The position numbers and the translations under genes were made by a program. From a virus, in IMG/VR virus record IMGVR_UViG_3300032163_000002, positions 62,001 to 126,000 of that record: DNA of 64,000 nt; one strand, 5' to 3'. The number at the start of each line of letters is the position of its first letter. The first letter of the stretch is position 1. The notes below the pieces were generated by a model. It was not told where the DNA came from. It did no database searches and saw nothing but the letters and a program-made list of their open reading frames with translations. This document shows positions 3,855 to 61,818 of the stretch, piece after piece.

Positions 3855-4523
3855 TTAGAGAATCGCAGCCGCGCCAAGCACCGGAGGAAGGCCCTCACCA
3901 CCAAGCTTGAGGGACAGCACTTCGGCGTCAGTAACCGGAATGTCCCCCGGAATCTCCGGGACAACCGGAAGCCCCGTAGCCACCTTGATCGCACGAGCGG
4001 CTTCAGTTTCCGACGTGATCTTCCGAGGGCGCCCCCGACCGCGCTTGATCGGAATACCGTCCGACCCGAGTGTGACAGGCTTCGGGGGACGGCCACGACC
4101 GCGCTTGATCGGAATACCGTCCGGCCCGAGTGTGACAGGCTTCGGGGGACGGCCACGACCGCGCTTGACTGGGGCGCCAGCCACGACAGGCTTCGGGGGA
4201 CGGCCACGACCGCGCTTGACGGGGGCGCCAGCCACGACAGGCTTCGGGGGACGGCCACGACCGCGCTTGACGGGGGCGCCAGCCACGACCGGTAATGCAG
4301 ACACAGCCGCCGCAGGAGAAGAACCTGCAACAGCGGGAGTCTGCTGCCCCTGAGCGTACTTGTGGAGCGAAATGAACTCAGTTTGCGCCGCCGTCAGTGG
4401 ATGAACTCCACCAGAGATCCGACGCGCGATGTTCGAAAACATGAGGTAGGCGTAAGGGTTTGCCTCCATCGCCTGCGCGATGACATTAGAGGCGGCTTCG
4501 ATAGGGGTCAGGATCTTTTTCAT
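3855..4523 (-). CDS. AT-hook DNA-binding protein with five hooks
   Basis: 222 residues from ATG 4523, beginning MKKILTPIEAASNVIAQAME. The first ~90 residues form a helical domain. Five AT-hooks follow (each KRGRGRPPKP or KRGRGRPRK), three in 17-residue units and two in 20-residue units, then a C-terminal hydrophobic segment. AT-hooks bind the minor groove of AT-rich DNA. The protein could compact or silence DNA, like an H-NS or histone analogue, or take part in host takeover. GGAG precedes the start; it is coupled to the gene upstream and followed by a terminator. Confidence 0.8.
   Translation of the reverse strand: MKKILTPIEAASNVIAQAMEANPYAYLMFSNIARRISGGVHPLTAAQTEFISLHKYAQGQQTPAVAGSSPAAAVSALPVVAGAPVKRGRGRPPKPVVAGAPVKRGRGRPPKPVVAGAPVKRGRGRPPKPVTLGPDGIPIKRGRGRPPKPVTLGSDGIPIKRGRGRPRKITSETEAARAIKVATGLPVVPEIPGDIPVTDAEVLSLKLGGEGLPPVLGAAAIL
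4023..4292. repeat. Tandem coding repeat encoding AT-hooks
   Basis: Three 51-bp and two 60-bp units in the AT-hook gene, nearly identical at the DNA level (core ggacggccacgaccgcgctt). This suggests recent expansion by slippage or recombination. Confidence 0.85.
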
Positions 4524-10605: not shown

Positions 10606-10908
10606 TCATACCGCCTGAAGTCCATGCCTAGAAAACTTGGTAGTAGGCTCGACAGCCTTAACCTTATCCTCAAAGATCACACGGGGAGCCGGGCATCCGG
10701 GACCAACAGAATCATCCGTTGTTGAATACATAAGCTGATTTTTCATTGGAGACCAAAAAAGCTCTCCAACTCGCGGAGGTCGAACTTCTCCCGTCGGAAC
10801 ATACCCATCATCTAAAACCCACTTCGGTACAATTTCACCAACAATAACCCACTCAACAGGTTTCTCTTCACCTTCCGCTGTAGTACTTCCTATTTTGAAT
10901 AAGCTCAT
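10606..10908 (-). CDS. Hypothetical protein between the SbcC and SbcD genes
   Basis: 100 residues, starting at ATG 10908 with GGGAGAG upstream. No domain recognised. Its place between the two subunits of the end-resection nuclease suggests a recombination accessory role by context only. Confidence 0.65.
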   Translation of the reverse strand: MSLFKIGSTTAEGEEKPVEWVIVGEIVPKWVLDDGYVPTGEVRPPRVGELFWSPMKNQLMYSTTDDSVGPGCPAPRVIFEDKVKAVEPTTKFSRHGLQAV

Positions 10909-12065: not shown

Positions 12066-12557
12066 TCACTTATAGAACATCACCGGATCATTGTCCGCCA
12101 GAAACGCCGAATAATCGAAAGGTATTTGCAAAACCTCTTTCACCGATATATCTGGACCTTCAAATTGCATCAGTGTATCCCGGAACAACCAAACATACTT
12201 CGGAAGCAAAATAGCTCCTGATGCAAATTCAATTCCTTTTTGAAGTGGTCTCCATAACCCAAGATCACGACGGGTCGGATCAACGTCATTCGGCTTAGCT
12301 TCACTAAGCCCCCAATGTTTTGTAACGGGGATCGCTGATGTCCCATAAATATGACGTGGGGCAGCATCCGGGACATCTACCCAACCATAGGTGCGCTTCT
12401 ATTTCCAAATTAACCACAAAAGTCCCCTCGCCATAGAGGCATTCAACGACCTTCGATAAACCTTATCAATTCTTTCACACAGGGGGCACTTAACCCAATC
12501 TCCTTTAATTATTTCATTGATGAAATGCTCCCTAGCGGCGTCAAGGCTTAATGGCAT
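12066..12557 (-). CDS. Conserved phage protein interrupted by one in-frame TAG
   Basis: Read from ATG 12557 to TGA 12066, 163 codons with a single TAG at codon 53 (12399-12401). Before it: a domain with VKCPLCERIDKVYRRSL and ASMARGLLWLIW. After it, in the same frame: YGWVDVPDAAPRHIYGTS, KHWGLSEA, LWRPLQKGIEFASGAI and LLPKYVWLF. Both halves look like one protein of a kind I recognise as widespread in phages (CPxC, ARGL, WVxVP and HWGL blocks); function unknown. AGAGGG lies 10 nt before the start. TAG may be suppressed, may be a CAG-to-TAG mutation, or may be an assembly error. Confidence 0.65.
12399..12401 (-). other. In-frame amber codon
   Basis: TAG at codon 53 of the gene at 12066-12557. 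The coding character is unbroken on both sides, and no frameshift is needed to join them. A Gln codon CAG differs by one transition. Confidence 0.8.
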
Positions 12558-13113: not shown

Positions 13114-13401
13114 TTATATGCATTCCAAGAAATCATGACAGAAATCGTCATTACTAATGACCACATAATCTAAAGGCCGAATTTCAACAATCCAGTTCGA
13201 CGGAAGCGCCCAAGAATACTTCACACACCGAACACTGTTTACTTCCATGCCTATGAACCTAACACCGTTTATTTCCATACCCTTTGTGCTCCACCCGTAA
13301 AAGACAACACCATTAAACCCCGAGTGAGAAGCCCAATCCACCACTTCCTGTGCGTTATCCCATAGCACTTTAATAGCGCGCACTTTATAAAGATATAACA
13401 T
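13114..13401 (-). CDS. Hypothetical protein, paralogue B
   Basis: 95 residues from ATG 13401 (TGATG overlap with the upstream stop). It shares VDWASHSGFNG and NWIVEIRPLDYVVISNDDF with paralogue A. A central duplication, ING[V]RFIGMEVNSVR, contains two near-identical short strands. Function unknown. Confidence 0.7.
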   Translation of the reverse strand: MLYLYKVRAIKVLWDNAQEVVDWASHSGFNGVVFYGWSTKGMEINGVRFIGMEVNSVRCVKYSWALPSNWIVEIRPLDYVVISNDDFCHDFLECI

Positions 13402-13871
13402 CAGGCACTTTCCACAGGAAGAACTTTTTTCGCAAAATGAGTCATGATTCGTCCGCATTGATCTACGCTGTAAATCGGAATCCACATAGCAAATAAATAG
13501 CAAGAAGGGGCAACTAGCGCAAGATCCTTTTCAATCTCTCGAACCAAACATTTCGTATATCGTTTTGAAAAATCCTCTCCGCCAAATCGCTCACGTATTT
13601 TTTTAGGGCGAGACATGATAACGATGCCTTCAAGCTCTGGCATCGGACCCCCCGCAGCGTACAACTTCAACCTGTCAGAATCTCTCAACGGAAAATTCGA
13701 GAATACCTCACGCACGAAATCGTCTAGAGTATTCGGAGTAATGACCCCTACAAATGGCAACTTGTAGTTACCTCTATTTATTCCCTCGCGGGAGTCAGAG
13801 CTACCACTTGACTCTAGACAAGTCTTAATTTGCTTCCGTTGATTTTCTACAAGAAGATCCACGTCAAACAT
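13401..13871 (-). CDS. Hypothetical protein
   Basis: 156 residues beginning MFDVDLLVENQRKQ. Mixed alpha/beta, with two cysteines near the C-terminus. The ATG overlaps the end of the upstream gene. Not recognised. Confidence 0.65.
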   Translation of the reverse strand: MFDVDLLVENQRKQIKTCLESSGSSDSREGINRGNYKLPFVGVITPNTLDDFVREVFSNFPLRDSDRLKLYAAGGPMPELEGIVIMSRPKKIRERFGGEDFSKRYTKCLVREIEKDLALVAPSCYLFAMWIPIYSVDQCGRIMTHFAKKVLPVESA

Positions 13872-37926: not shown

Positions 37927-38586
37927 GTGGCATCCTTCCTGCCTCCGGACGAAGACGAAGAGGAGCTGCTTGAGGCCGACATCGACTTAGAAGAATTTCG
38001 TGTCAACACCCAGCATACGATTTATGACCTGATTCTTCGGTGGGTGCAGGAGGCGAGCGCATCCGTTAGAAGTCTGGCGGAAGCCCGAGAGACTCTCATG
38101 GACGCCACGGTATACGGAGACTACCGTTCAATCAAACTCGCAGCAGATAGCCTCGGAAAAACTTTGGAAGCAGCTATTGAGCAGCTTCTTGCCATTGCCG
38201 GACAATTTGATTCTCCGCTTCAAATTAAATCTGCTCTCGCCGAACGTGAAAGTGGTGAGAAAAAATCGAGCCCCATTGTGGATGCTTTGTTCAAGCTCGA
38301 TGGAACGGCACGAGAACATCTACGTGTTGCTTTTCTGACCCTTCTGCGTGACGCTCAAAAATTACAAGATCCTGTCACCGTAACAGTGCTACCAGAACCG
38401 GAGAAACTTGGTGAACAAAGTACATCCGTCACTGACAGCGCTACCGCTGCTCCTGACAAAAAGGTTAACCGACGCACAAGCCGAAGCGTTAGAAACAGGC
38501 TGCGAATCCTACGCAAAAAGTCCTCAGTTAAACGTAGTACTCCATTATATTTACGGACTCTTCGTAAACTGTCAAAGCGACGCTGA
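37927..38586 (+). CDS. First gene of late operon; possible small terminase
   Basis: 219 residues from GTG 37927. Acidic N-terminus, helical body, then a very basic tail (NRRTSRSVRNRLRILRKK). It stands directly before the large terminase, the usual place of the small subunit, and the basic end could bind DNA. No HTH is obvious. Its last 176 nt overlap terL in another frame, and the unusual tail composition may simply reflect that overlap. Probably leaderless; AAGG also stands 7 nt before the GTG. Confidence 0.6.
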   Translation: MASFLPPDEDEEELLEADIDLEEFRVNTQHTIYDLILRWVQEASASVRSLAEARETLMDATVYGDYRSIKLAADSLGKTLEAAIEQLLAIAGQFDSPLQIKSALAERESGEKKSSPIVDALFKLDGTAREHLRVAFLTLLRDAQKLQDPVTVTVLPEPEKLGEQSTSVTDSATAAPDKKVNRRTSRSVRNRLRILRKKSSVKRSTPLYLRTLRKLSKRR

Positions 38587-41500
38587 ATTTCTACTTTTAC
38601 AACAAGTTCTCATGGAATTTGTGGTTCACCACAACATTGAAGGACTAGTACGACTTTGGAAAGATGAATTCATTGACGGTGTTCCACCTGTAGACGCTAG
38701 TAAATTTCTCGAAGATCCTTACTTTCTAGGTGAATTTGGAAAATCCCTTTATCCTGTATGGAAAAAAGACCTTCTTTACGTTCTCAATCCAATCAATAAC
38801 ATTGAAGAGTGGGCTCTTGTAGGCGCGCAAGGTTCTGGAAAATCGACCGCGGCCCTCGTTGGGCAGACCTATAAACTCTATTGGCTGTCTCGGCTGAAAA
38901 ACCCGCAAAAATACTTCTTTCTCGACCCGACCACAAACATCTATTTCGGGTTCTTTACGTTGAATAGGGAAAAAGCCGAAGATATCCTTTACAGTAAATT
39001 TCATGCCATCTTGGAACAATCCAGCTATTTCAAGGATCGGTTCCCGATGCGCAAACGCCGTGTTGGCGGAATCAAGGTCTCGAAGAATATACAAGATCAG
39101 ACAACGGAAGGCTCTGACTGGAATTACGAATTGCTTTTTCCAAAAGGTGTACACATCGTTTCAGGATCGCAAACCTCCCACGCCCTTTCCATTGATCTGA
39201 TGAGCGTCGTACTTGACGAAATGAACTGGCGGCGAAAAAAAACTCTTCGCCCTGAAGAAGACATAAACTCTGCTCTCACACTTTATGAGCAAGTTCGTAC
39301 ACGTATCTCCTCGCGCTTCATGACACAAGGTGTAAAACCGGGACTCTTGACTGTCATCTCTTCAAAACGCGCCACGACAGACTTCATGGATTCACTTGTG
39401 GCTCGAATGAAAAAGGAGCCATATCGTTGTTATATTTCAGATTATGCTCTATGGGAAGCCAAACCAGACAGAATTTATTCAGGGAAAAAATTCTACGTCT
39501 TCGTCGGGGGCTCTCAAACCAAGAGCCATATCATCGACGACACACATCTCCATGAGTACGATGTATCCCTGAAAAATGTTTACGCTATTCCCGTCGAATA
39601 CCGTGCTGAATTTGACATGAGCTTGACCACAGCTCTACACGACATCGCAGGTATTTCAACTGTACCTCATGAACTTCTTTTTGATAAAGAAGAACATTTA
39701 ACGCAATGCATTGACCTAACCCGAACTTCTCCTTTTACACAAGATGTCATTGAACTTGGCCTTTCCTCTCCTTACTCCCTCAACAAATTTTTCAAGCAAG
39801 CCGAATTCACTCACCACGACGGTTTCAAACTCAAGCCGAAATACTGGCCGGAGTCAGAAAGGTACATTCATATAGACCTTTCAAAGACAAAAAACGCCAC
39901 AGGAATAACAATGCTATGTCCGTACAAAGTCGGACGAATGGTTATACCCGTTCCCGGAGGATCACCGGTCGTTACTCTTGTTCCGCTTGTCTGGATTGAT
40001 CTCATGATGCGTCTCGTGGCTCCAAAGGAAGATCAAATTGATTATGACAAAATCAGAGAGTTCGTTCAATATCTTCGGAATTGCGGATTCCGTATCGTAA
40101 ATGTTTCCTACGATACTTACCAATGCTTAGCCGCTGGAACACTCGTGAACACATCCAGAGGACTTATTCCCATTGAAAAAGCAAAAATTGGAGACCTCGT
40201 CGCCTCTAGAATAGGTCCGCGTCCAGTACAGAAAACATGGTCATTCGGTGAACACAGCACAATTAAAATCACCATGAAAGATGGAGACACTCTCGAAGGT
40301 ACAGAAAAGCATTGTATTGAAGTTCGTACAGCATGGGCGCAGGGGAAAGATAGGCGCGTAGTCTCTAAATGGAAATGGAAACGTCTGGATGAAATCAAAT
40401 TAGGAGATGTGGTTCATCTCGTGGAAGAAGCCGTACCATTAAACACAAGAAAAAATACAATACTGTGCGGCAGTAAACTCAACTTCGGATGGAGACGCGG
40501 TGCTGGTAGAAAAAGCAAAGCGGACACTTGGGAATTTCCAAAACGAATGACGCCTGAACTAGCAGAAGTACTAGGGCTTTTGTGGGGGGATGGAAATATC
40601 TCTGAAGACAGCTTGCGCCTTACAGTTACTCCAAATGAAGCTCCTAATGCCCGTCGTGTATTCCGTGCATTATTCGGGTTCTCTCCAAAATACAGAGCGC
40701 GTAAATCTACCCACGGTGTCATATCCGTTTCTGGTAGATGGATAACAAGATGGATGAAAAAGAACGGGTTACTGAAGCCTCTGATTCCGGAAGCCATTCT
40801 CACAAGCAGTCGAGAAGTTCAGGCCGCATTTATTCAAGGTTTATTCGCAACCGATGGCTCTGTTAATAAAAACACAGGGCAGGTGAGTTTTTCCACCAAG
40901 CATCTCAAGCTGGCCGAGCAAGTAATGATCCTTCTCCGCACAGAATTCGGCCTCGCCTGTCATCTAACAAAAATACAGCGCGGGCATAAAGGGGATTACC
41001 TACAAGAAGGCATTCAGTATGTTGTTTTAGTTCGAGGAAGTCGCAACGCATTCATCAGTCAGATCGGGTTCAGTTACACTAAAAAAACCCGCGATCTAGC
41101 TCTGCACAACAACAGACCGGGACGTAGAATTTTTTCTCGCATCGCTAAAATTGAATCTTCCAGAGCAAGAGTATTCGACCTTCAGGTAGAAGGCGATCCG
41201 TCTTATACGGCTAATGGCTTCGTGTCACATAACAGTGCTGATAGTATTCAGTTGCTCTCAAAAATGGGCTTCAACACATCAAATATTTCTGTAGAAGCCG
41301 ACCTTCCTTATCTCAATCTACGCACAGCATTTGCACAAAAGCGCATTAACTGGTATCGGTACGATCCGGCTATCGAAGAATTAAAAGCCCTGATTCACGA
41401 TCTTGAAAAAGACAATGTTGATCATCCAGACATGGACCCTTTCGGAGGTCCGGGAAGAAAAGACATAGCTGATTCCATTTGTGGTGCCTATACAGCGTTA

Positions 41501-41773
41501 GCACGAGCTATCGCAACGAAAAAAGTCAGCACTGCCAGTCCAACAGCCATTAATCTCGGACAGATCCGCCCGAAAGAACCGGCTGTTGTAGACGCAAGTG
41601 TGGTTGAATTTTTCAGGGGAGTTATACCTGTAGTTCCAGATTCCGTAACTGGTCATCGAACAGACCGCTTTATCACGGAAGACTATCAGGAATACCCAAA
41701 GAATGCCACGATAGAAGAAGTGTTGAAGGAGGAAAAAGAAGATGAGAAAAAAGAAATACTTAAGCCCGGATGA
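38411..41773 (+). CDS. terL: Terminase large subunit with intein
   Basis: 1120 residues from GTG 38411 (GGAG 7 nt upstream). ATPase: Walker A GAQGSGKSTAAL at ~145, Walker B LMSVVLDEMNW. Nuclease domain: HIDLSKTKNATG, then VNVSYDTYQ. Here the chain is broken by an intein (residues 572-941) starting CLAAGTLVNT and ending GFVSHN. The extein resumes with SADSIQLL, so splicing rebuilds DTYQSADSIQ, a conserved block of the nuclease domain. The mature protein is about 750 residues. It packages DNA into proheads through the portal encoded next. Enzyme activity before splicing is unlikely. Confidence 0.93.
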   Translation: MNKVHPSLTALPLLLTKRLTDAQAEALETGCESYAKSPQLNVVLHYIYGLFVNCQSDAEFLLLQQVLMEFVVHHNIEGLVRLWKDEFIDGVPPVDASKFLEDPYFLGEFGKSLYPVWKKDLLYVLNPINNIEEWALVGAQGSGKSTAALVGQTYKLYWLSRLKNPQKYFFLDPTTNIYFGFFTLNREKAEDILYSKFHAILEQSSYFKDRFPMRKRRVGGIKVSKNIQDQTTEGSDWNYELLFPKGVHIVSGSQTSHALSIDLMSVVLDEMNWRRKKTLRPEEDINSALTLYEQVRTRISSRFMTQGVKPGLLTVISSKRATTDFMDSLVARMKKEPYRCYISDYALWEAKPDRIYSGKKFYVFVGGSQTKSHIIDDTHLHEYDVSLKNVYAIPVEYRAEFDMSLTTALHDIAGISTVPHELLFDKEEHLTQCIDLTRTSPFTQDVIELGLSSPYSLNKFFKQAEFTHHDGFKLKPKYWPESERYIHIDLSKTKNATGITMLCPYKVGRMVIPVPGGSPVVTLVPLVWIDLMMRLVAPKEDQIDYDKIREFVQYLRNCGFRIVNVSYDTYQCLAAGTLVNTSRGLIPIEKAKIGDLVASRIGPRPVQKTWSFGEHSTIKITMKDGDTLEGTEKHCIEVRTAWAQGKDRRVVSKWKWKRLDEIKLGDVVHLVEEAVPLNTRKNTILCGSKLNFGWRRGAGRKSKADTWEFPKRMTPELAEVLGLLWGDGNISEDSLRLTVTPNEAPNARRVFRALFGFSPKYRARKSTHGVISVSGRWITRWMKKNGLLKPLIPEAILTSSREVQAAFIQGLFATDGSVNKNTGQVSFSTKHLKLAEQVMILLRTEFGLACHLTKIQRGHKGDYLQEGIQYVVLVRGSRNAFISQIGFSYTKKTRDLALHNNRPGRRIFSRIAKIESSRARVFDLQVEGDPSYTANGFVSHNSADSIQLLSKMGFNTSNISVEADLPYLNLRTAFAQKRINWYRYDPAIEELKALIHDLEKDNVDHPDMDPFGGPGRKDIADSICGAYTALARAIATKKVSTASPTAINLGQIRPKEPAVVDASVVEFFRGVIPVVPDSVTGHRTDRFITEDYQEYPKNATIEEVLKEEKEDEKKEILKPG
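40124..41233 (+). other. Intein in terminase, LAGLIDADG type (370 residues)
   Basis: Begins with Cys (CLAAGTLVNTSRGLIPI), block B EGTEKHCIEV, ends VSHN before Ser. Two dodecapeptide motifs, EVLGLLWGDGNI and IQGLFATDGSV, mark a homing endonuclease with both acidic residues present, so it may be active. Inserted in an essential conserved motif, as usual for homing inteins. Confidence 0.93.
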
Positions 41774-41808: not shown

Positions 41809-44748
41809 ATGGCTAGAATTGCTGAAGACAGAATTATTCCTTTGAGTCAGCTTAATCGGGTGCAAAAAGCCCTCATTAGAATCTTCGGCATTGACAGGTG
41901 GATTTTCGGGCGCAAAGCCATCACCAAGACGGGCGGCGGAGATCCAGAAGCAGTACGCCAAGAACAGATGTCCCTTCTCATGGGGGAATTCTCAGCCTAT
42001 ACGCAGTTAAGCAATGACAGACACGTAAAATACGCAGACTATGACGCGATGGACGAAGGTAGCCCTGAAGTTGCTTCTGTCCTCTCTCTCTACGCACAAG
42101 AAGCTTCTCCGGAAGACTTGCACACGCGTAAGGTGATATGGGTGACGGCAAAAGAAAAGGATCTTGAAAAAACCCTGAACCGACTGATACGAGAACTGAA
42201 TCTCGAAGAGCGCGCGTGGGGCACAATTCGAAATCTGGCAAAATATGGTGATTGCTTTTTGCTCAATTTATTTGCCGAAGGAAAAGGGGAAGGTACAGCA
42301 CACGAAAAGAACAAGACATATCTACGTTCTTTACAATATATTTATCCCGGTCGTGTTAAACGTATTGAAGCTGATACATTGCTTGGGTATGTTTCAGAAG
42401 ACCTTGCCACAATTATTCCTCCTGATGACGACGAACATAATATGTATGCTCCGTGGGTTTTCTGTTACGATGCTGAGACGGAAGTTCTTACATCTCGTGG
42501 CTGGCTACATTTCAAGGATCTTGAAAAAACCGACATGATAGCTACTCGAAACCTTCGAACAAAGCAATTCGAATGGCAAAAACCTACAGAATACGTCAAT
42601 CACCCGTATTCTGGTCCTATGGTTAAATTCAGTTCTAATACGGTGGATCTTCTCGTTACACCTAATCATAGAATGCTGGTTTGGATTCCCACCAACAATA
42701 AAATTGGAACTGAACGAATCATCAAGGCCGAAGATATCATAACAGACAAACACAACCGCTCTCATTTTTCAATTCCGATGACATCTTCTTGGGCGGGTAA
42801 CGAAATCAAAAATGTTACATTTAATCCGATAACTTCTCAGGTAACACGTCAAGAGCGTAACGGAAAAATAGCTACGCGCAATCAATGTAACCAGCAGCCT
42901 CTAAGTCTATCTGGAGATGATTATTGCGCGCTCATGGGAGCATGCCTTTCCGAAGGTAGCGTTGATCGTAAAAAAGGACTGCAAATTGCACAGCGCACCA
43001 CATCAAAAGGATACACTAAATATAAAGAACTGTTCGAACGCATTAACGGGGGAAATGCTAGGCACAACGGTAAAGTGTTTTGGATTTATCGTCGTTGTTT
43101 AGTGCCTTTCTTCAATGCATTCGGATATTCTCACGAAAAGTTCATTCCTGACAACATCATGAACGCTATCCCTAGACAACTTAAAATCTTTTGGGAGTAT
43201 TACGTACTAGGTGACGGCTGGTTCACACGAGATAGAAAAACACGAAACGGAATAGACCCGGTTATGATTGCAACCAGTAGCTTCCAGATGGCAGGACAAC
43301 TTCAAGAAATCGCACAAAAATTAGGTTTTTGCGCCACCATGCGAACATTTCCAGCCAAAGACAAGATAATCAAAGGCCAGCGCACTCATATGCGCAAAAA
43401 TTACCGTATTACGCTTCGAAATACTAAAGCTGTAACTTTTAAGTCTGAAATGACTGAATACACCGGTACAATTCACTGCGCGACAGTCCCTAACGGAGTC
43501 ATGTATGTTAGGCGAAACGGTAAGCCTGCATGGTGTGGAAATACTCATGGACGACTGATGGCATACGATCAAGAAAGTATTTACGGGAGATCAATGTGCG
43601 AGGAAGTTCGAAAAATTTGGAAAATGCTGAGTATCCTTGAAACGATGGTGGCACTCGCACATGTCCAAAGGGCCATTGACCGAAATGTGTTCATGATAGA
43701 TGTGGGGACCGCATCCGAAGAGGAAGCTCTTGCTCTCGTAAAAAAATACAAACAGTGGCTTCGTCGAAAGGAATTTTTCGATCCTCAGACGAATCAATTC
43801 AAAAATGACTTCAACCCTACCACGATCCAAGAAGATATTTTCTGGCCGACTCGTCCCAATTCCAATTCACGAGTTGATACACTTCAAGGAAAAACAGTAC
43901 CACAAGGACTCGTAGATGATCTGAATTACTTTCGCAATAAGCTCTGTGGAGGGCTAGGTGTTCCGCGTGAATACCTCGACGGTACAACACAAGGTTCAGT
44001 CTTCGACTCAAAAGCTGCTCTCGTTCTACAAGATATTCATTTCGCCCGAAAAATCGAACGGCTTCAACGAAGCTTTCGCCAGATGATTCATCGTATCTGT
44101 CAAGTTCATCTTGCTCTTGATGGTGTAATAACAAACGAATTTGAAATACGCATGGCTCCACTTTCTCTTATTAGCGATAGGCTCAATGAAGACTTGTGGC
44201 AACGACGTGCAGAAGTTCTTGGAGTGTTGACTCTGCTTGCTACACAAATGGGTTGGCCGCAAGATGTTTGGAATATTTATCTCACAAAAAATTTCATTCG
44301 AGACATTCCAAGTGACATATTGGAAAAACTAATCGAAGGTATCAAAAAAATGGTGCCGCCAGAAGGACTCCCACAAGATGTGAGCACATCGGGAGAAACC
44401 GGAAACGGCGAGAAAGGGGGAAAATCCAGCGGACCCCCAATGACTCACAACCCAAAGAATCCACTCTCACCTGATGTTCCGAAAAAAATACCTCATGCTG
44501 ATTTCCCTCTTACCCCGAAAAACCTTTTCAAAGATGCATTCGGAAAGATAGCAGCAGATAGCTTGGAAGAATCTCTTTATGAAAGCTACGGCGAAACAGA
44601 AACACTCGAACGGCTAAAAAGAGACCTCTCAAAAATGAAGCGGGGCATCATTGAAAAATATCCAGAACTTGAAAATATGGCAAAAGCTGCGGAAAAAGAA
44701 CTAGATGAAGACGAGAAGAAAGAGTCGAATGAAGATGAGGAGGAGTAA
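41809..44748 (+). CDS. Portal protein with intein
   Basis: 979 residues. GAGGAG precedes the ATG. The extein (about 619 residues) has a T4-gp20-like layout: AKYGDCFLLNLF, YIYPGRVKRIE, HGRLMAYDQESIYGRSMCEE, and DVGTASEEEALALVKKYK. The intein occupies residues 219-578, between APWVF and THGRLMAY. The portal forms the dodecameric ring at one vertex for packaging and tail joining. C-terminus acidic and disordered. Followed by the HU-like gene in a TAATG overlap. Confidence 0.88.
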   Translation: MARIAEDRIIPLSQLNRVQKALIRIFGIDRWIFGRKAITKTGGGDPEAVRQEQMSLLMGEFSAYTQLSNDRHVKYADYDAMDEGSPEVASVLSLYAQEASPEDLHTRKVIWVTAKEKDLEKTLNRLIRELNLEERAWGTIRNLAKYGDCFLLNLFAEGKGEGTAHEKNKTYLRSLQYIYPGRVKRIEADTLLGYVSEDLATIIPPDDDEHNMYAPWVFCYDAETEVLTSRGWLHFKDLEKTDMIATRNLRTKQFEWQKPTEYVNHPYSGPMVKFSSNTVDLLVTPNHRMLVWIPTNNKIGTERIIKAEDIITDKHNRSHFSIPMTSSWAGNEIKNVTFNPITSQVTRQERNGKIATRNQCNQQPLSLSGDDYCALMGACLSEGSVDRKKGLQIAQRTTSKGYTKYKELFERINGGNARHNGKVFWIYRRCLVPFFNAFGYSHEKFIPDNIMNAIPRQLKIFWEYYVLGDGWFTRDRKTRNGIDPVMIATSSFQMAGQLQEIAQKLGFCATMRTFPAKDKIIKGQRTHMRKNYRITLRNTKAVTFKSEMTEYTGTIHCATVPNGVMYVRRNGKPAWCGNTHGRLMAYDQESIYGRSMCEEVRKIWKMLSILETMVALAHVQRAIDRNVFMIDVGTASEEEALALVKKYKQWLRRKEFFDPQTNQFKNDFNPTTIQEDIFWPTRPNSNSRVDTLQGKTVPQGLVDDLNYFRNKLCGGLGVPREYLDGTTQGSVFDSKAALVLQDIHFARKIERLQRSFRQMIHRICQVHLALDGVITNEFEIRMAPLSLISDRLNEDLWQRRAEVLGVLTLLATQMGWPQDVWNIYLTKNFIRDIPSDILEKLIEGIKKMVPPEGLPQDVSTSGETGNGEKGGKSSGPPMTHNPKNPLSPDVPKKIPHADFPLTPKNLFKDAFGKIAADSLEESLYESYGETETLERLKRDLSKMKRGIIEKYPELENMAKAAEKELDEDEKKESNEDEEE
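42463..43542 (+). other. Intein in portal, LAGLIDADG type (360 residues)
   Basis: Begins CYDAETEVLTSRGWLHF, block B LVTPNHRMLV, ends PAWCGN before Thr. The penultimate residue is Gly rather than the usual His, so the last splicing step may be slower or need another residue. Endonuclease motifs ALMGACLSEGSV and YYVLGDGWF are present. Confidence 0.92.
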
Positions 44749-45122
44749 TGACCGGAATACCTTCTCCTCAAACTCTTCTCGCCAAACGCACTGTTGAAAA
44801 ATTACGAAATACCTTGCTTCCGAGTGCTGCACCTTACGAACCTGACTGGAATATGGCAATGATCCAGCGAGTTCTCGGTGCCCTTGGAGAAGTTATTCTC
44901 GATGCCGTTTCTCACGGAGAAGAAGTTCAGCTTGGGCGACTCGGTTCTTTTTTTCCGAAAGTTTTTGATGAACGAATTGTTGCTTCCAATTTACAAGGTG
45001 GCGAGAAAAAAGTAATCCCAAAGCGTATACATCTCGGCTTCGATGCTACTACAAGCGCAGAAACACGCGTGCAAGAGTTCAGCAAATTTCTCAATGAATT
45101 CGATAAGCGGAAAACAAGTTGA
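44748..45122 (+). CDS. HU/IHF-like protein in the head operon
   Basis: 124 residues. LGALGEVILDAVSHGEEVQL then GRLGSFFPK, and after a basic segment KKVIPKRIHLGF: this follows the HU order of helix, GxxVxLxxFG-type turn, beta arm and final helix, extended at both ends. HU-like proteins bend or coat DNA. Its position between portal and head morphogenesis genes suggests a role in packaging or a virion component; a fold resembling HU without DNA binding is also possible. Confidence 0.5.
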   Translation: MTGIPSPQTLLAKRTVEKLRNTLLPSAAPYEPDWNMAMIQRVLGALGEVILDAVSHGEEVQLGRLGSFFPKVFDERIVASNLQGGEKKVIPKRIHLGFDATTSAETRVQEFSKFLNEFDKRKTS

Positions 45123-47176
45123 TGAAAACTCCTGTGGATCTCTTCGCCGAAGCCACACTGTATGAAGCACTGGTGGGCGCCATGATTTACGAATCCAAAT
45201 ATTTTCCGACACACGGACACGTTAGACACGCGCCTTCTTCCAGAAATAGAATACGAACGCAACTTCATACGTATGACGCGCTGGCAAACTACGATCAATG
45301 GAAAAATGCCAAACGTTATCAGGCAGGTGTAGTGAAAGCTGCCTTCGACCGAGTAAAATCAGATTTCAAAAGAGCACTACTTGACGCTACGCAGGGTTAC
45401 AGAGCAAAAAAATACAATGCCAACGAAATGAAGGTGCTATCAAAAGTTGCTTTCGATAATGCTTATACGAGTGCTTACGCTCTTGGTCTACGCGCAGCAG
45501 GGCTAACCCGTCTAAGCATGGGGCAAAAAACAGCCACCTCTGGCCCGACAATGGACCCACACGACAAAGAATGGCTGAAAAGCTCAGTAGCGCATGAACG
45601 CCGGTACTGGAATGAATTCGTAAGCTCCATCATTTCGGGAAGCATTGACGCTAAATGGCGTGCTTTCACGATGGAACAGCGTGTAGAATTTTATGTGCGT
45701 ACACTCGACCACGTATATGAAACTGCCCGAGTCGTAGGACATCCTGTTCACACAATTTTTTACTGGACCCTGCACCCAGCAGAACACTGTATCGCTGAAT
45801 CAGCATGGCTCGTGACCGATCAAGGGCTTCTTACCATGAAAGAAGCAGCTAAAACAATGCAATGCCGCGTTGCCACTGGAATGACAAACGGGCTCGGCAA
45901 TATTAGAAAAGTAATTTCAAAAGGTCATCAGCCAGTCCTGTGTATCACGACACATCTTGGCTATCACCTCGAAGGTACGAATGAGCACCGTATTGTGATT
46001 TATGATGTAGCAACAAAAAATCTTGCGTGGAAAACACTCGGTCAAATTAAACGTGGGGATCTACTTGTCATGACACGCGGACAATTCGACCGTTACGGAG
46101 CAGGCCGCCACATTGATCCGGAAATTGCAGAGCTTCTTGGGTTTATCGAAGGAAACGGTTACTACTGGCACGAAAAACACGCCACACGAAAAACTCCAAG
46201 GCAAATACTTGGATACCTTTTAGATCGTCGAGACATGGATCTTTGGACTCGTTACAACGACGCTCTTTTACGAAACGGTATGGAAACCTTCAGAGCCAAC
46301 AACTATTCTGGTTCTAATCATGTCTTAAATATTCGGACAGGAAAACTCAGCACAATAAAGACCCTTCGTTTACTCGGAGCCAAATCAGGATTTTCCGAAG
46401 TCATCAGGGCATTCTCCCCCGATTCATTAGCTGCGTATCTACGTGGACTTTTTGAAGCTGATGGTTCGTGTGGTAGGAGAAAAACCGACACAAAACTAAT
46501 TTCGATTAGCGTCTGTTTTTCCTCTGCAAAGGAAACATTCATTCGAGACATTCAGATGGCCCTCTTCTCCCTTGGCATTTTAAGTCGTATTTACAAACAA
46601 ACAGGAAACACAAACTTCAAGCAAAACCGAACTCTGTGGACCCTGAAGATTCTCGGAGGAGCTAATCTCGTTCGATTCATCGAACGTATCAATTTCGCCA
46701 GTCGAAGAAAGCGTCTTCAACTCAGAGAAGTCCACGAAAAAGAGACCAGAGGTGATACATTCCCGGTTCATGAAAAGAAACGTGCATCAGTTGGTCAGCT
46801 TATTGAAATGAACGTCAAAAACCACAAAATTCAAGAGTGGCTGACATCCGACATTCATTTTGCTAGAGCCGTAACACTGAAAAAGCTTAAGCCACGCGAA
46901 GTCTATGACGTACTTGACAGCTCAACACATACTTTTTCGGCCAATGGTTTTCTCGTGCATAATTGCGATGGCTGTATCATGTTAGCAGATAATTCTCCTT
47001 ACACACGCGAAACACTTCCTGCCGTACCACGTTCAGGAGCTACACAGTGCCTTGCAAACTGTAAATGTGAACTTCGTGTCGTGACCCCTTCCAATACAAA
47101 TCAATGGGATCAAATCAGGAAACAAGGAAATCGAAATATCCTTCTTGCAAAATTAAAGTCCCTCAAACGTAGATGA
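45122..47176 (+). CDS. Head morphogenesis protein (SPP1 gp7-like) with intein
   Basis: 684 residues from ATG 45122 (TGATG overlap). Extein about 292 residues: helical N-terminal domain, then WTLHPAEH and, after the intein, CDGCIMLADNSPYTRE followed by QCLANCKCEL. These blocks are characteristic of the minor head protein family (gp7/Mu gpF). The intein covers residues 223-614 and splits the CxxC motif from its preceding His. Gp7-type proteins are internal minor head proteins involved in DNA delivery. Confidence 0.88.
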   Translation: MKTPVDLFAEATLYEALVGAMIYESKYFPTHGHVRHAPSSRNRIRTQLHTYDALANYDQWKNAKRYQAGVVKAAFDRVKSDFKRALLDATQGYRAKKYNANEMKVLSKVAFDNAYTSAYALGLRAAGLTRLSMGQKTATSGPTMDPHDKEWLKSSVAHERRYWNEFVSSIISGSIDAKWRAFTMEQRVEFYVRTLDHVYETARVVGHPVHTIFYWTLHPAEHCIAESAWLVTDQGLLTMKEAAKTMQCRVATGMTNGLGNIRKVISKGHQPVLCITTHLGYHLEGTNEHRIVIYDVATKNLAWKTLGQIKRGDLLVMTRGQFDRYGAGRHIDPEIAELLGFIEGNGYYWHEKHATRKTPRQILGYLLDRRDMDLWTRYNDALLRNGMETFRANNYSGSNHVLNIRTGKLSTIKTLRLLGAKSGFSEVIRAFSPDSLAAYLRGLFEADGSCGRRKTDTKLISISVCFSSAKETFIRDIQMALFSLGILSRIYKQTGNTNFKQNRTLWTLKILGGANLVRFIERINFASRRKRLQLREVHEKETRGDTFPVHEKKRASVGQLIEMNVKNHKIQEWLTSDIHFARAVTLKKLKPREVYDVLDSSTHTFSANGFLVHNCDGCIMLADNSPYTRETLPAVPRSGATQCLANCKCELRVVTPSNTNQWDQIRKQGNRNILLAKLKSLKRR
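45788..46963 (+). other. Intein in head morphogenesis protein, LAGLIDADG type (392 residues)
   Basis: Begins CIAESAWLVTDQGLLTM, block B EGTNEHRIVI, ends NGFLVHN before Cys. Motifs LLGFIEGNGYY (Asn after Gly) and LRGLFEADGSC. Inserted in front of the conserved CDGC of the extein. Confidence 0.92.
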
Positions 47177-58396: not shown

Positions 58397-60193
58397 TCAC
58401 GGCAAAGTCAAGCAAGGATTCGGCAGTGGATCAGGAACGGGTGAATCAATATTAGCAGTCGTTGTGATTCTAACGTGCTCAATGGCACTACCATCTTTAG
58501 CATCTCCAAGAATTGCCTTATTAGACTTGTCAAAATCGTTGATACGAATAAGTTTCCAGCGAGACACCGGAATATCCGCATAATCAGGTATCGTTTCTAT
58601 CCACCGATAAACGGTTTGATATATGCCTGTACCTATAATACCTCCATCATTATCATCGCTAGAACCCCCCTGCGAACCAATCGGTTGAAAATTCGTACCC
58701 CCAACAAGAATTATACCTTGTGTATACACAGACTGACTGAGCTTGACCGTCGCCCATGAAACTCCCGGTACACTGGAAATGAGTTTTGCTACGAGCGACT
58801 GCCGAGCATCCTGTCCAAATTCCACGTTGGCGTAAGAGAAATAATCCTGTACTGCCAGCTTTACATCTGCCGCGACAATTTCCGGGTCATACCGCATTCG
58901 ATCCACGGCAACGATAGCCGATATGATGATGTCTACCCATTCTGGCGCGCGAAAAACAAGACGAGTTGTAACCGGCTTTCGTTCTTCCAAGAGTGTTTGT
59001 ACGTTGGATTTAATTGTTGTATAAGCTGTGGAGTCTGATTCGACAAGATTTCCGTTAGTGTCAAGCGCCAAAAATACTACCATGACTCGATTGATAAGCT
59101 TGACGTTTGGATGCTCTTCTTCCTGTTCACCCCACGCATTTGCTTTATCGACACCGTTGATACTACGAGTAAGAGCTATGTAATCATTCTTGGACATTGC
59201 CCGAAAAAGCGCAGACAATAACGCTGGTCCATTCTGTTTCGCATTTTCAATCGTCTCAGGATCTGCGCCTCCCGAAATTGGAAGAATATTCGTAGCAATT
59301 AGCTGTACAGGAATTCCGTTCGCGTCTGTAATAACAGAAGAAACACTGGTAATAGTGCCCGCAGCTAGATTTCCTACGGAGCCTAAAGTGAGAATCGGAT
59401 AAACATAAATATTTTGGCCTAATGCTGGAATTTTCCCGAACTTTCCATCTCCAAATTGCACGTAGACATTTCCTCGTGCATCTTCACTTGACTGAAAAAC
59501 TTGATCATTTGACTCGGAAGTAAGAAACGATGAAACATTGGACCAAGAAAGCGAGGAAGCTTCCGATGAGCCAATCTTGACGATGAGCAGGTTTCGATCA
59601 ATACCTTGTATGCTTAATACGTATCGTTGATTTGCCGTACCATCTGCTGAAAAAACTTCCGGAGCAGTTATTTTTTGCCCTTGAATGACTCCAACTATCA
59701 CAGAACCCGGAGCACCCGGTTCTGACGCTGTTAAGTAAGCATCTTCCGTAGTATAAAAATCCACAGAGTCTACGTTGTCACTACGCCCGGAAAGTTGAGT
59801 TCCAGCCGGAATATAAATTGAATTCGCGTGTCCATTCACAGTTCCATATGTAGGACTACTAGCCGCTGGAGACACGGAGAGTGTAACTTGTCCTTTGGCT
59901 GCACCATACCCCAACAAATCATAATCTATAAGCTTCAACAAATTTTTGACATTAGCTCGTTGTACCGCAGTTGGAAGCTGTGTCTCAGAAAATTTCTTAT
60001 CAAGGTAAAAGAGCAACTGATCTTGCATGGCAATGAGAAGCTCAAGAACCGCAATACCAAGATCAGATTCATTTAGATCCGTCCAACGCCCGACGCTTAA
60101 TACCGGAATTCGCGCAAAAAGTTCATCTCGCAACGAGCGCCAATCTGCATTCGTATAAGAAATTTTAGCAGCAGGAGTAAGTTGTAAAGTCAT
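58397..60193 (-). CDS. Baseplate J-like protein (gp6/gpJ)
   Basis: 598 residues. Starts with DWRSLRDELFARIPVLS and DLGIAVLELLIAMQDQLLFY, then VYVQFGDGKFGKIPALGQNI, GGADPETIENAKQNGPALLS and DYIALTRSINGVDKANAWG, the J-family blocks. The J and gp6 proteins form the inner ring of the baseplate. It begins where the gp25-like gene ends. Confidence 0.87.
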   Translation of the reverse strand: MTLQLTPAAKISYTNADWRSLRDELFARIPVLSVGRWTDLNESDLGIAVLELLIAMQDQLLFYLDKKFSETQLPTAVQRANVKNLLKLIDYDLLGYGAAKGQVTLSVSPAASSPTYGTVNGHANSIYIPAGTQLSGRSDNVDSVDFYTTEDAYLTASEPGAPGSVIVGVIQGQKITAPEVFSADGTANQRYVLSIQGIDRNLLIVKIGSSEASSLSWSNVSSFLTSESNDQVFQSSEDARGNVYVQFGDGKFGKIPALGQNIYVYPILTLGSVGNLAAGTITSVSSVITDANGIPVQLIATNILPISGGADPETIENAKQNGPALLSALFRAMSKNDYIALTRSINGVDKANAWGEQEEEHPNVKLINRVMVVFLALDTNGNLVESDSTAYTTIKSNVQTLLEERKPVTTRLVFRAPEWVDIIISAIVAVDRMRYDPEIVAADVKLAVQDYFSYANVEFGQDARQSLVAKLISSVPGVSWATVKLSQSVYTQGIILVGGTNFQPIGSQGGSSDDNDGGIIGTGIYQTVYRWIETIPDYADIPVSRWKLIRINDFDKSNKAILGDAKDGSAIEHVRITTTANIDSPVPDPLPNPCLTLP

Positions 60194-61818
60194 TATGGCC
60201 TACCTTGAATAGGAAGTACCATACCCTTAGTAGAAATTCTATTTGATTCAAAACCTGTCACGCTGCTCGTCATAGACATTCCCTTGATTTCAAAAGGAAA
60301 GACGAAAGATCCCGTTTGGTGTGTCTGTACCACGTAGAAATTGATGACGATTCCAATATACTCAGGACGATTATCGTCCCTCTGGAAATAGACATTTGTG
60401 ATGGTAATACGCCGTTCCCAACGCCGCAAAGACTCGACAGTGTAATAATAAAGAAGTTGATTCGTAAACCCATCACTCGGTTCAAAAACAAGATCATAAA
60501 GCCTTGAATTATGGATGAAAACCCCAGCACTTACAGCATAATTTTCAGTCGTTGAATTTGCCAAGTCAAATACTTCGAGAACCAACCCGGTTTTTTCTAC
60601 AAAAAGAACTTTATGATTATGCCATTTATTTCCCTTCAGTATTTGTGGGGCTAACAAAGCTACTGGAATTCGACGTATCAAGGTCGCGCGACTAATCTTA
60701 AAATGCGAACATACACGCTGCACAACTTCAGTTCTATTCTCAACCCGCAAAGTAGTTGAAAATTTACGAATAACCTCTGCTGATATTGGCTTTTTGCGCA
60801 CTAATCCAAGCGTGCGTGCATAAGCCCGCCCTAAAAGACTGCGCGACCACACCCCACTTTGCCCTACTCTCCTACATACTTCTACACGATGCTCATGTGC
60901 AAGACGCTGTCGCTCTGGACTGTGCCTACGCGCGTACTCTTCAAGCCGTAACATCTCTCGACGTTCCCGCATGATTTTCCAACGCTCTGCCAAAGATGCC
61001 TTCATTTTCGAAATACGCCTCTCTTCCGAATGTGCAGAGCGTCTGTAAGCAGCCAGATTTTTCAAAGCAATAGCTCGCATTTTTTCCCGGTGCTTCGGGT
61101 CTTTCCAAAGTCGTTCCAAAGGCATTCCCGGAGTAAACATATGCTTGATATGCTGAGCATGAAGCTCAATATGTTCTTTTTTCTCCAGCGCCACAAGATT
61201 ATCCGGACTATTGTTTCGCTTACAAAAATCTTTATGATGTACGATATGTCCAACTTTTACGTTTAATACTACCCTGTGGGTAGGACACCATTTGTTCAAG
61301 TGAGAAAGATATGTTTCCTCATATCCTTTTCGATTTATCTTGCGATAAAGAGGCATTAAAGACATTCCAGTAAGAAGATTTTCAGCCGAACAATACATAC
61401 CCCCCCGTAACATGAAGGGGTGTCCAGCCGTCACCAAAATAGATTCCATGTTATCTAGCGTAACACGAAGCACTTCTTGAAATCCACGAGATACGGCACC
61501 GGGAGAGAACGCAGGAACCATTTTACCGTCCCTATTCCCGTAAACCCATACCGGAACACCTACAAGTTCTCTAATTAAACGCTCTGTGCCGTTCAAGAGT
61601 GGGATTTTCGTATCTCCTGACACGCAACCGAATTCTGGTTGCATAATACGTTCACCGGGACGGGTACGTAAAATCGTCTGAATCGAAGAGATAATTTTGT
61701 CAAGCCCGTTGGCCGTTGTGACTGCACGAACTCCTTTTCCCACAGAAAAAGAAAAAGGAGACCGCATTCCGGTTCCAATTACGTCGCGCGAGCCGAGAGG
61801 TACACCAGTAAGTGACAA
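60193..61818 (-). CDS. Baseplate wedge protein (gp25-like) with intein
   Basis: 541 residues from TTG 61818 (AGGAGAG upstream). Extein of 168 residues: TRPGERIMQPEFG, then after the intein SRLYDLVFEPSDGFTNQL. This is the gp25/W core (GER.M.P.FG..L..L.FEP). The intein fills residues 65-437. Gp25 is the sheath initiator in contractile tails and baseplate-like systems. The C-terminal ~100 residues are beta-rich. Confidence 0.88.
   Translation of the reverse strand: MSLTGVPLGSRDVIGTGMRSPFSFSVGKGVRAVTTANGLDKIISSIQTILRTRPGERIMQPEFGCVSGDTKIPLLNGTERLIRELVGVPVWVYGNRDGKMVPAFSPGAVSRGFQEVLRVTLDNMESILVTAGHPFMLRGGMYCSAENLLTGMSLMPLYRKINRKGYEETYLSHLNKWCPTHRVVLNVKVGHIVHHKDFCKRNNSPDNLVALEKKEHIELHAQHIKHMFTPGMPLERLWKDPKHREKMRAIALKNLAAYRRSAHSEERRISKMKASLAERWKIMRERREMLRLEEYARRHSPERQRLAHEHRVEVCRRVGQSGVWSRSLLGRAYARTLGLVRKKPISAEVIRKFSTTLRVENRTEVVQRVCSHFKISRATLIRRIPVALLAPQILKGNKWHNHKVLFVEKTGLVLEVFDLANSTTENYAVSAGVFIHNSRLYDLVFEPSDGFTNQLLYYYTVESLRRWERRITITNVYFQRDDNRPEYIGIVINFYVVQTHQTGSFVFPFEIKGMSMTSSVTGFESNRISTKGMVLPIQGRP
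60508..61626 (-). other. Intein in gp25-like protein, HNH type (373 residues)
   Basis: Begins CVSGDTKIPLLNGTERL, block B LVTAGHPFML, ends AGVFIHN before Ser. Unlike the other three it contains an HNH nuclease (HIVHHKDFCKRNNSPDNLVA then EHIELHAQH), followed by very basic helical repeats typical of DNA-binding modules in HNH homing enzymes, and an HTH-like VCSHFKISRATLIRR. Confidence 0.93.

Follow-up and report, generated by a model that had tools for sequence, protein, structure and literature searches.

The region described here lies on the minus strand of a 64,000-nucleotide stretch of viral DNA, referred to below as the window, which corresponds to positions 62001-126000 of a source record of 141,027 bp. 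The record carries a direct terminal repeat of 109 bp and so it is probably a complete genome. It includes tail-sheath and T4-like portal genes, and no relatives at the DNA level were found by blastn when an 8-kb region was compared with about 50,000 phage records. Within a tightly packed run of genes, the flanking genes leave a space of 533 bp, put at about 500 bp in the initial annotation, and this gap is filled by a single interrupted frame (12557-12066). The frame begins with ATG, with the sequence AGAGGG upstream, and it consists of 52 codons, an in-frame TAG at codon 53 and a further 110 codons that end in TGA (12068-12066), giving 163 codons in all. The CPxC and ARGL blocks that had been pointed out before the TAG and the WVDVP and HWGL blocks after it are all present. 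The surroundings are those of a replication and recombination cluster, with UvsX-like, SSB-like and SbcD-like genes nearby, and the features of the locus are listed in Table 1.

Table 1. The interrupted gene and its neighbors, with positions given relative to the window.
Feature	Start	End	Strand	Evidence or remark
SbcD-like nuclease/metallophosphoesterase, downstream neighbor	10909	12045	-	phrog_100, E = 4.6e-39
3' part of the PHROG_2693 gene, 110 codons	12066	12398	-	query-free profile, E = 3.8e-18; structure model
In-frame amber codon (TAG), codon 53	12399	12401	-	the five closest homologues carry Tyr at this position
5' part of the PHROG_2693 gene, 52 codons	12402	12557	-	CPLC and MARGLLWLIWK blocks; query-free profile, E = 4.6e-10
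Small protein, upstream neighbor	12579	12842	-	paralogue of 13114-13503
UvsX-like recombinase, further upstream	14595	15698	-	phrog_97, E = 3.4e-61

The small protein encoded immediately upstream and its minus-strand paralogue share 47% identity over 89 aligned positions and represent a local duplication next to the interrupted gene. On the other side, a 100-aa ORF (10606-10908, minus strand) shares the frame of the SbcD-like gene and has its ATG directly past the TGA of that gene, and there is a further overlap with the SbcC-like ATPase ORF, at the 5' end of the latter.

With the TAG masked, the translated frame matches PHROG_2693 (E = 1e-18) over residues 4-155 of its 163 residues and positions 12-156 of the 158 in the profile. 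A tblastn search matched 228 phage records (best E = 4e-15) with at least 80% of the frame covered in each, and these are nearly all mycobacteriophages, with identities of 23-33% among the matches listed. The match of our alignment A1 to the genome itself (E = 2e-55) is not independent as A1 includes the query, and a query-free profile derived from viral homologues was used instead and searched against every segment between stops in the record (2,609 in all). The 3' piece of the gene ranked first and the 5' piece second, while all of the other segments were non-significant. The interrupted frame is a PHROG_2693 member by descent and, unlike the other members examined, it is not open throughout but has the in-frame TAG at codon 53. 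What it has in common with its relatives is similarity over the full length, the CPxC and W-G-L motifs and a replication/recombination gene setting, since the relatives adjoin genes for a helicase, an exonuclease or an annealing protein, and within the stretches compared there were no neighbors shared with the closest family homologues. PHROG_2693 comprises phage proteins of unknown function, such as gp67 of Mycobacterium phage Whirlwind and gp184 of Tonenili, and the member from phage I3 is labeled 'DNA binding protein'. When IMG/VR was scanned with individual proteins, namely the target, the UvsX-like protein and the DNA polymerase, no near relatives emerged, and the exact DNA pattern around the TAG, with that codon masked, gave no match.

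That the frame is coding on both sides of a single TAG, as first described, is confirmed in that each half matches PHROG_2693. The 110 codons after the TAG have a codon-usage score of 0.127, which is also the mean for windows taken from real genes and is matched by only 0.3% of off-frame windows. The 52 codons before the TAG score poorly, and only 3% of real windows are equally low. Past the TAG, the first ATG, GTG or TTG is codon 117 of 163, and the lack of a start up to this point together with the normal codon usage means that the 3' half is not a second gene. Hence 12557-12066 is one gene rather than two. Of its 163 codons only one carries an inactivating change, and the most conserved residues of the family are retained on both sides of it. 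A standard gene caller would report either a 52-aa protein or a gap at this position, and the PHROG_2693 member would be overlooked.

A confident AlphaFold model (mean pLDDT of 86, pTM of 0.79) was built on the alignment of homologues, with Gln standing in for the TAG. The 3' part of the gene encodes most of the predicted fold and residue 53 is located within a helix (residues 40-56), so that a truncated product of 52 residues, which according to the model would miss most of the fold, should be non-functional. Comparison with the PDB using Foldseek gave weak winged-helix/MarR-like matches, none of them significant (best E = 0.11), so that a role in DNA binding is inferred rather than observed. 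The product is probably a small protein that binds DNA, has a CPxC motif and includes a winged-helix-like domain, and our best guess, based on the CPxC motif, the label of the phage I3 protein and the gene context, is an accessory DNA-binding role in recombination.

The residue that stands at codon 53 in other viruses was determined in a homologue set of 30 and then 69 IMG/VR loci, from which 70 distinct viral segments were aligned. None of these segments, which are all at most 38% identical to the query, has a stop in this column, and thus the inspection of homologues that had been recommended returned a sense codon in 70 of 70 cases. Stops do occur inside a few of the matched segments, and these sit at the C-terminal ends of the proteins concerned. 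One homologue (L039/L094, the same contig) was considered as a precedent and rejected, as the protein ends about five residues early with a TAA directly before an ATG, an arrangement that resembles the normal end of a gene. In a separate case from a Methylocystis MAG (L123, from about position 4001), the homologue is, by simple translation, apparently out of frame after the first third, possibly because of a frameshift.

The codon-53 column is itself variable, Tyr being the commonest residue (11 of 70) followed by Gly, His, Phe and Ser. The five closest homologues (L070, L051, L053, L054, and L020; 34-38% identity), two of which (L070 and L053) are nearly identical to each other, all have Tyr encoded by TAC, and Tyr, encoded by TAT or TAC, is also found in three homologues of about 30% identity (L052, L055, and L057). 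Other homologues at 30-32% identity (e.g., L023, L114, and L059) have residues other than Tyr at this position. Because all of the five closest have Tyr, the ancestral residue was more probably Tyr than Gln, and codon 53 most likely encoded tyrosine originally, as judged from the alignment, although at such a distance this does not amount to proof. Both of the Tyr codons are one substitution away from TAG. The origin by a CAG-to-TAG mutation that was suggested at the outset is therefore probably wrong.

There is no sign that the genetic code of this phage is altered. TAG terminates seven of the 42 genes in the record that encode 250 aa or more and eight minus-strand genes of the window, in agreement with the initial annotation that about eight other genes use it as a normal stop and that it is not globally reassigned. 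Among 233 coding-like segments on the minus strand, the only strong one that lacks a start near its 5' end, leaving aside one truncated where the record stops, is the 3' half of this gene, with a score of 20.5 as against 6 to 9 for the others, and no other clear in-frame interruption was found among these segments. A search for a phage tRNA with a CUA anticodon, which had been proposed, was extended to the full 141-kb record and gave no tRNA of any kind, whether by ARAGORN, by Rfam at the gathering score or by RF00005 at E <= 10, and no release-factor gene was found in the record. The absence of tRNAs is not decisive by itself as some recoding phages are without suppressor tRNAs (PMC10607447), and the stronger arguments against recoding are that the event is a lone one and that TAG is in use as a stop. 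In TAG-recoding phages many genes, including core ones, are interrupted by TAG, whereas here only one stands out; their long genes are not terminated by TAG, as some are here; and a phage suppressor tRNA (CUA) is usual in them, if not universal. For example, in phAss-1, a phage of similar size that recodes TAG, three suppressor tRNAs accompany 41 interrupted ORFs (PMC10607447). Both phAss-1 and the code-15 crAss-like phages (PMC9523058) resemble the present phage in having TAG inside a conserved phage gene and in their genome size, but compared with phAss-1 there is here one interrupted gene, no tRNA and a TAG that serves as a stop.

We propose that the interrupted gene is most likely an ordinary case and not a new way of reading the code. 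The explanation that we consider likely is that one amber nonsense substitution interrupts a conserved gene that is otherwise intact, and this substitution would be either real and young or an error in the consensus. Codon 53 would have been changed to TAG by one substitution, most likely from a tyrosine codon, and translation would normally stop at this point to give a 52-residue fragment without most of the fold, with the full-length protein produced at most in a small amount by background readthrough or by a host suppressor. As the rest of the frame is undamaged, the change should be young, either a recent loss or a polymorphism in the population, or else the consensus base is wrong. Thus, of the four options initially offered, the best fit is provided by a nonsense mutation of recent date or an erroneous base, while recoding and readthrough are left without support. 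Against a nonsense change is the fully normal codon usage of the half after the TAG, which would also fit production of the protein in useful amounts. In-frame stops are common in bacterial genomes and mostly short-lived, seldom outlasting the stage of polymorphism within a population. Genes assigned to 'Mobilome: phages and transposons' are over-represented among those that contain them (PMC7918605). As in those cases, the stop described here lies within an otherwise intact conserved gene, but the stops analyzed in that study are common to orthologues, whereas here only one sequence is known with the stop. As things stand, the interrupted gene is mainly a point of annotation.

Within this explanation, an error in the consensus or the assembly, with a sense codon in the phage itself and an intact gene, is a possibility that we regard as doubtful if taken alone. 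It would involve one base in a single metagenomic record, and it is consistent with the Tyr found in the nearest homologues and with a gene that is otherwise undamaged. However, the assembly shows no sign of being generally error-rich, in that the main coding strand is without other clear interruptions. Host-dependent amber suppression, in which a host suppressor tRNA or the partial use of TAG as a sense codon would yield the full-length protein, seems unlikely. The half after the TAG is intact and codes normally, as would be expected, and some stop-recoding phages do not have a suppressor tRNA of their own, but seven of the 42 longest genes end in TAG, the record is without a tRNA or release factor, and one interrupted gene contrasts with the 41 in a TAG-recoding phage of similar size (PMC10607447). 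It is very unlikely that the host is amber-suppressing and that the lone TAG ties production of an accessory DNA-binding protein to the decoding state of the host. If the TAG were conserved and read as sense by the host, this would be a rare example of a phage with one codon switch that depends on the host, and nothing here favors it.

We consider programmed readthrough, in which the TAG would be a regulatory element that leads to both a short and a long product, to be highly improbable. The AAA TAG AAG context corresponds to no readthrough motif known to us, and RNA structure 3' of the TAG is not significant (z = -1.44, with 14 of 200 shuffles equally stable). In addition, none of the 70 distinct viral homologues, all of 38% identity or less, has a stop at codon 53, and the 52-aa product would terminate within a helix. 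The initial assertion of a straight read through the TAG is thus unsupported, there being no tRNA, release factor, other clearly interrupted gene, significant RNA structure or recognized motif. On the other hand, the frame past the TAG is intact, and in-frame stops may lower bacterial expression without killing the gene (PMC7918605), as programmed readthrough would have it. That there are two adjacent genes, or reinitiation past the TAG, is hardly credible, for although in-frame neighbors separated by a stop exist in the record, in every other such pair no more than 10 codons separate the stop from a start, in contrast to codon 117 here, and no homologue is split at codon 53.

Apart from the amber codon, this is an intein-rich phage, in which four large genes of the window have intein-like insertions, although several of the intein matches are under Pfam's cut-off. 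A terminase-like gene (38408-41773, plus strand) and a third gene of the head region (45119-47176, plus strand) each have intein splicing and LAGLIDADG matches, while the T4-like portal gene situated between them (41809-44748, plus strand) has a LAGLIDADG match and a weak one to Hint. In the gene for a gp25-type baseplate wedge protein (60193-61818, minus strand), intein splicing is combined with HNH.
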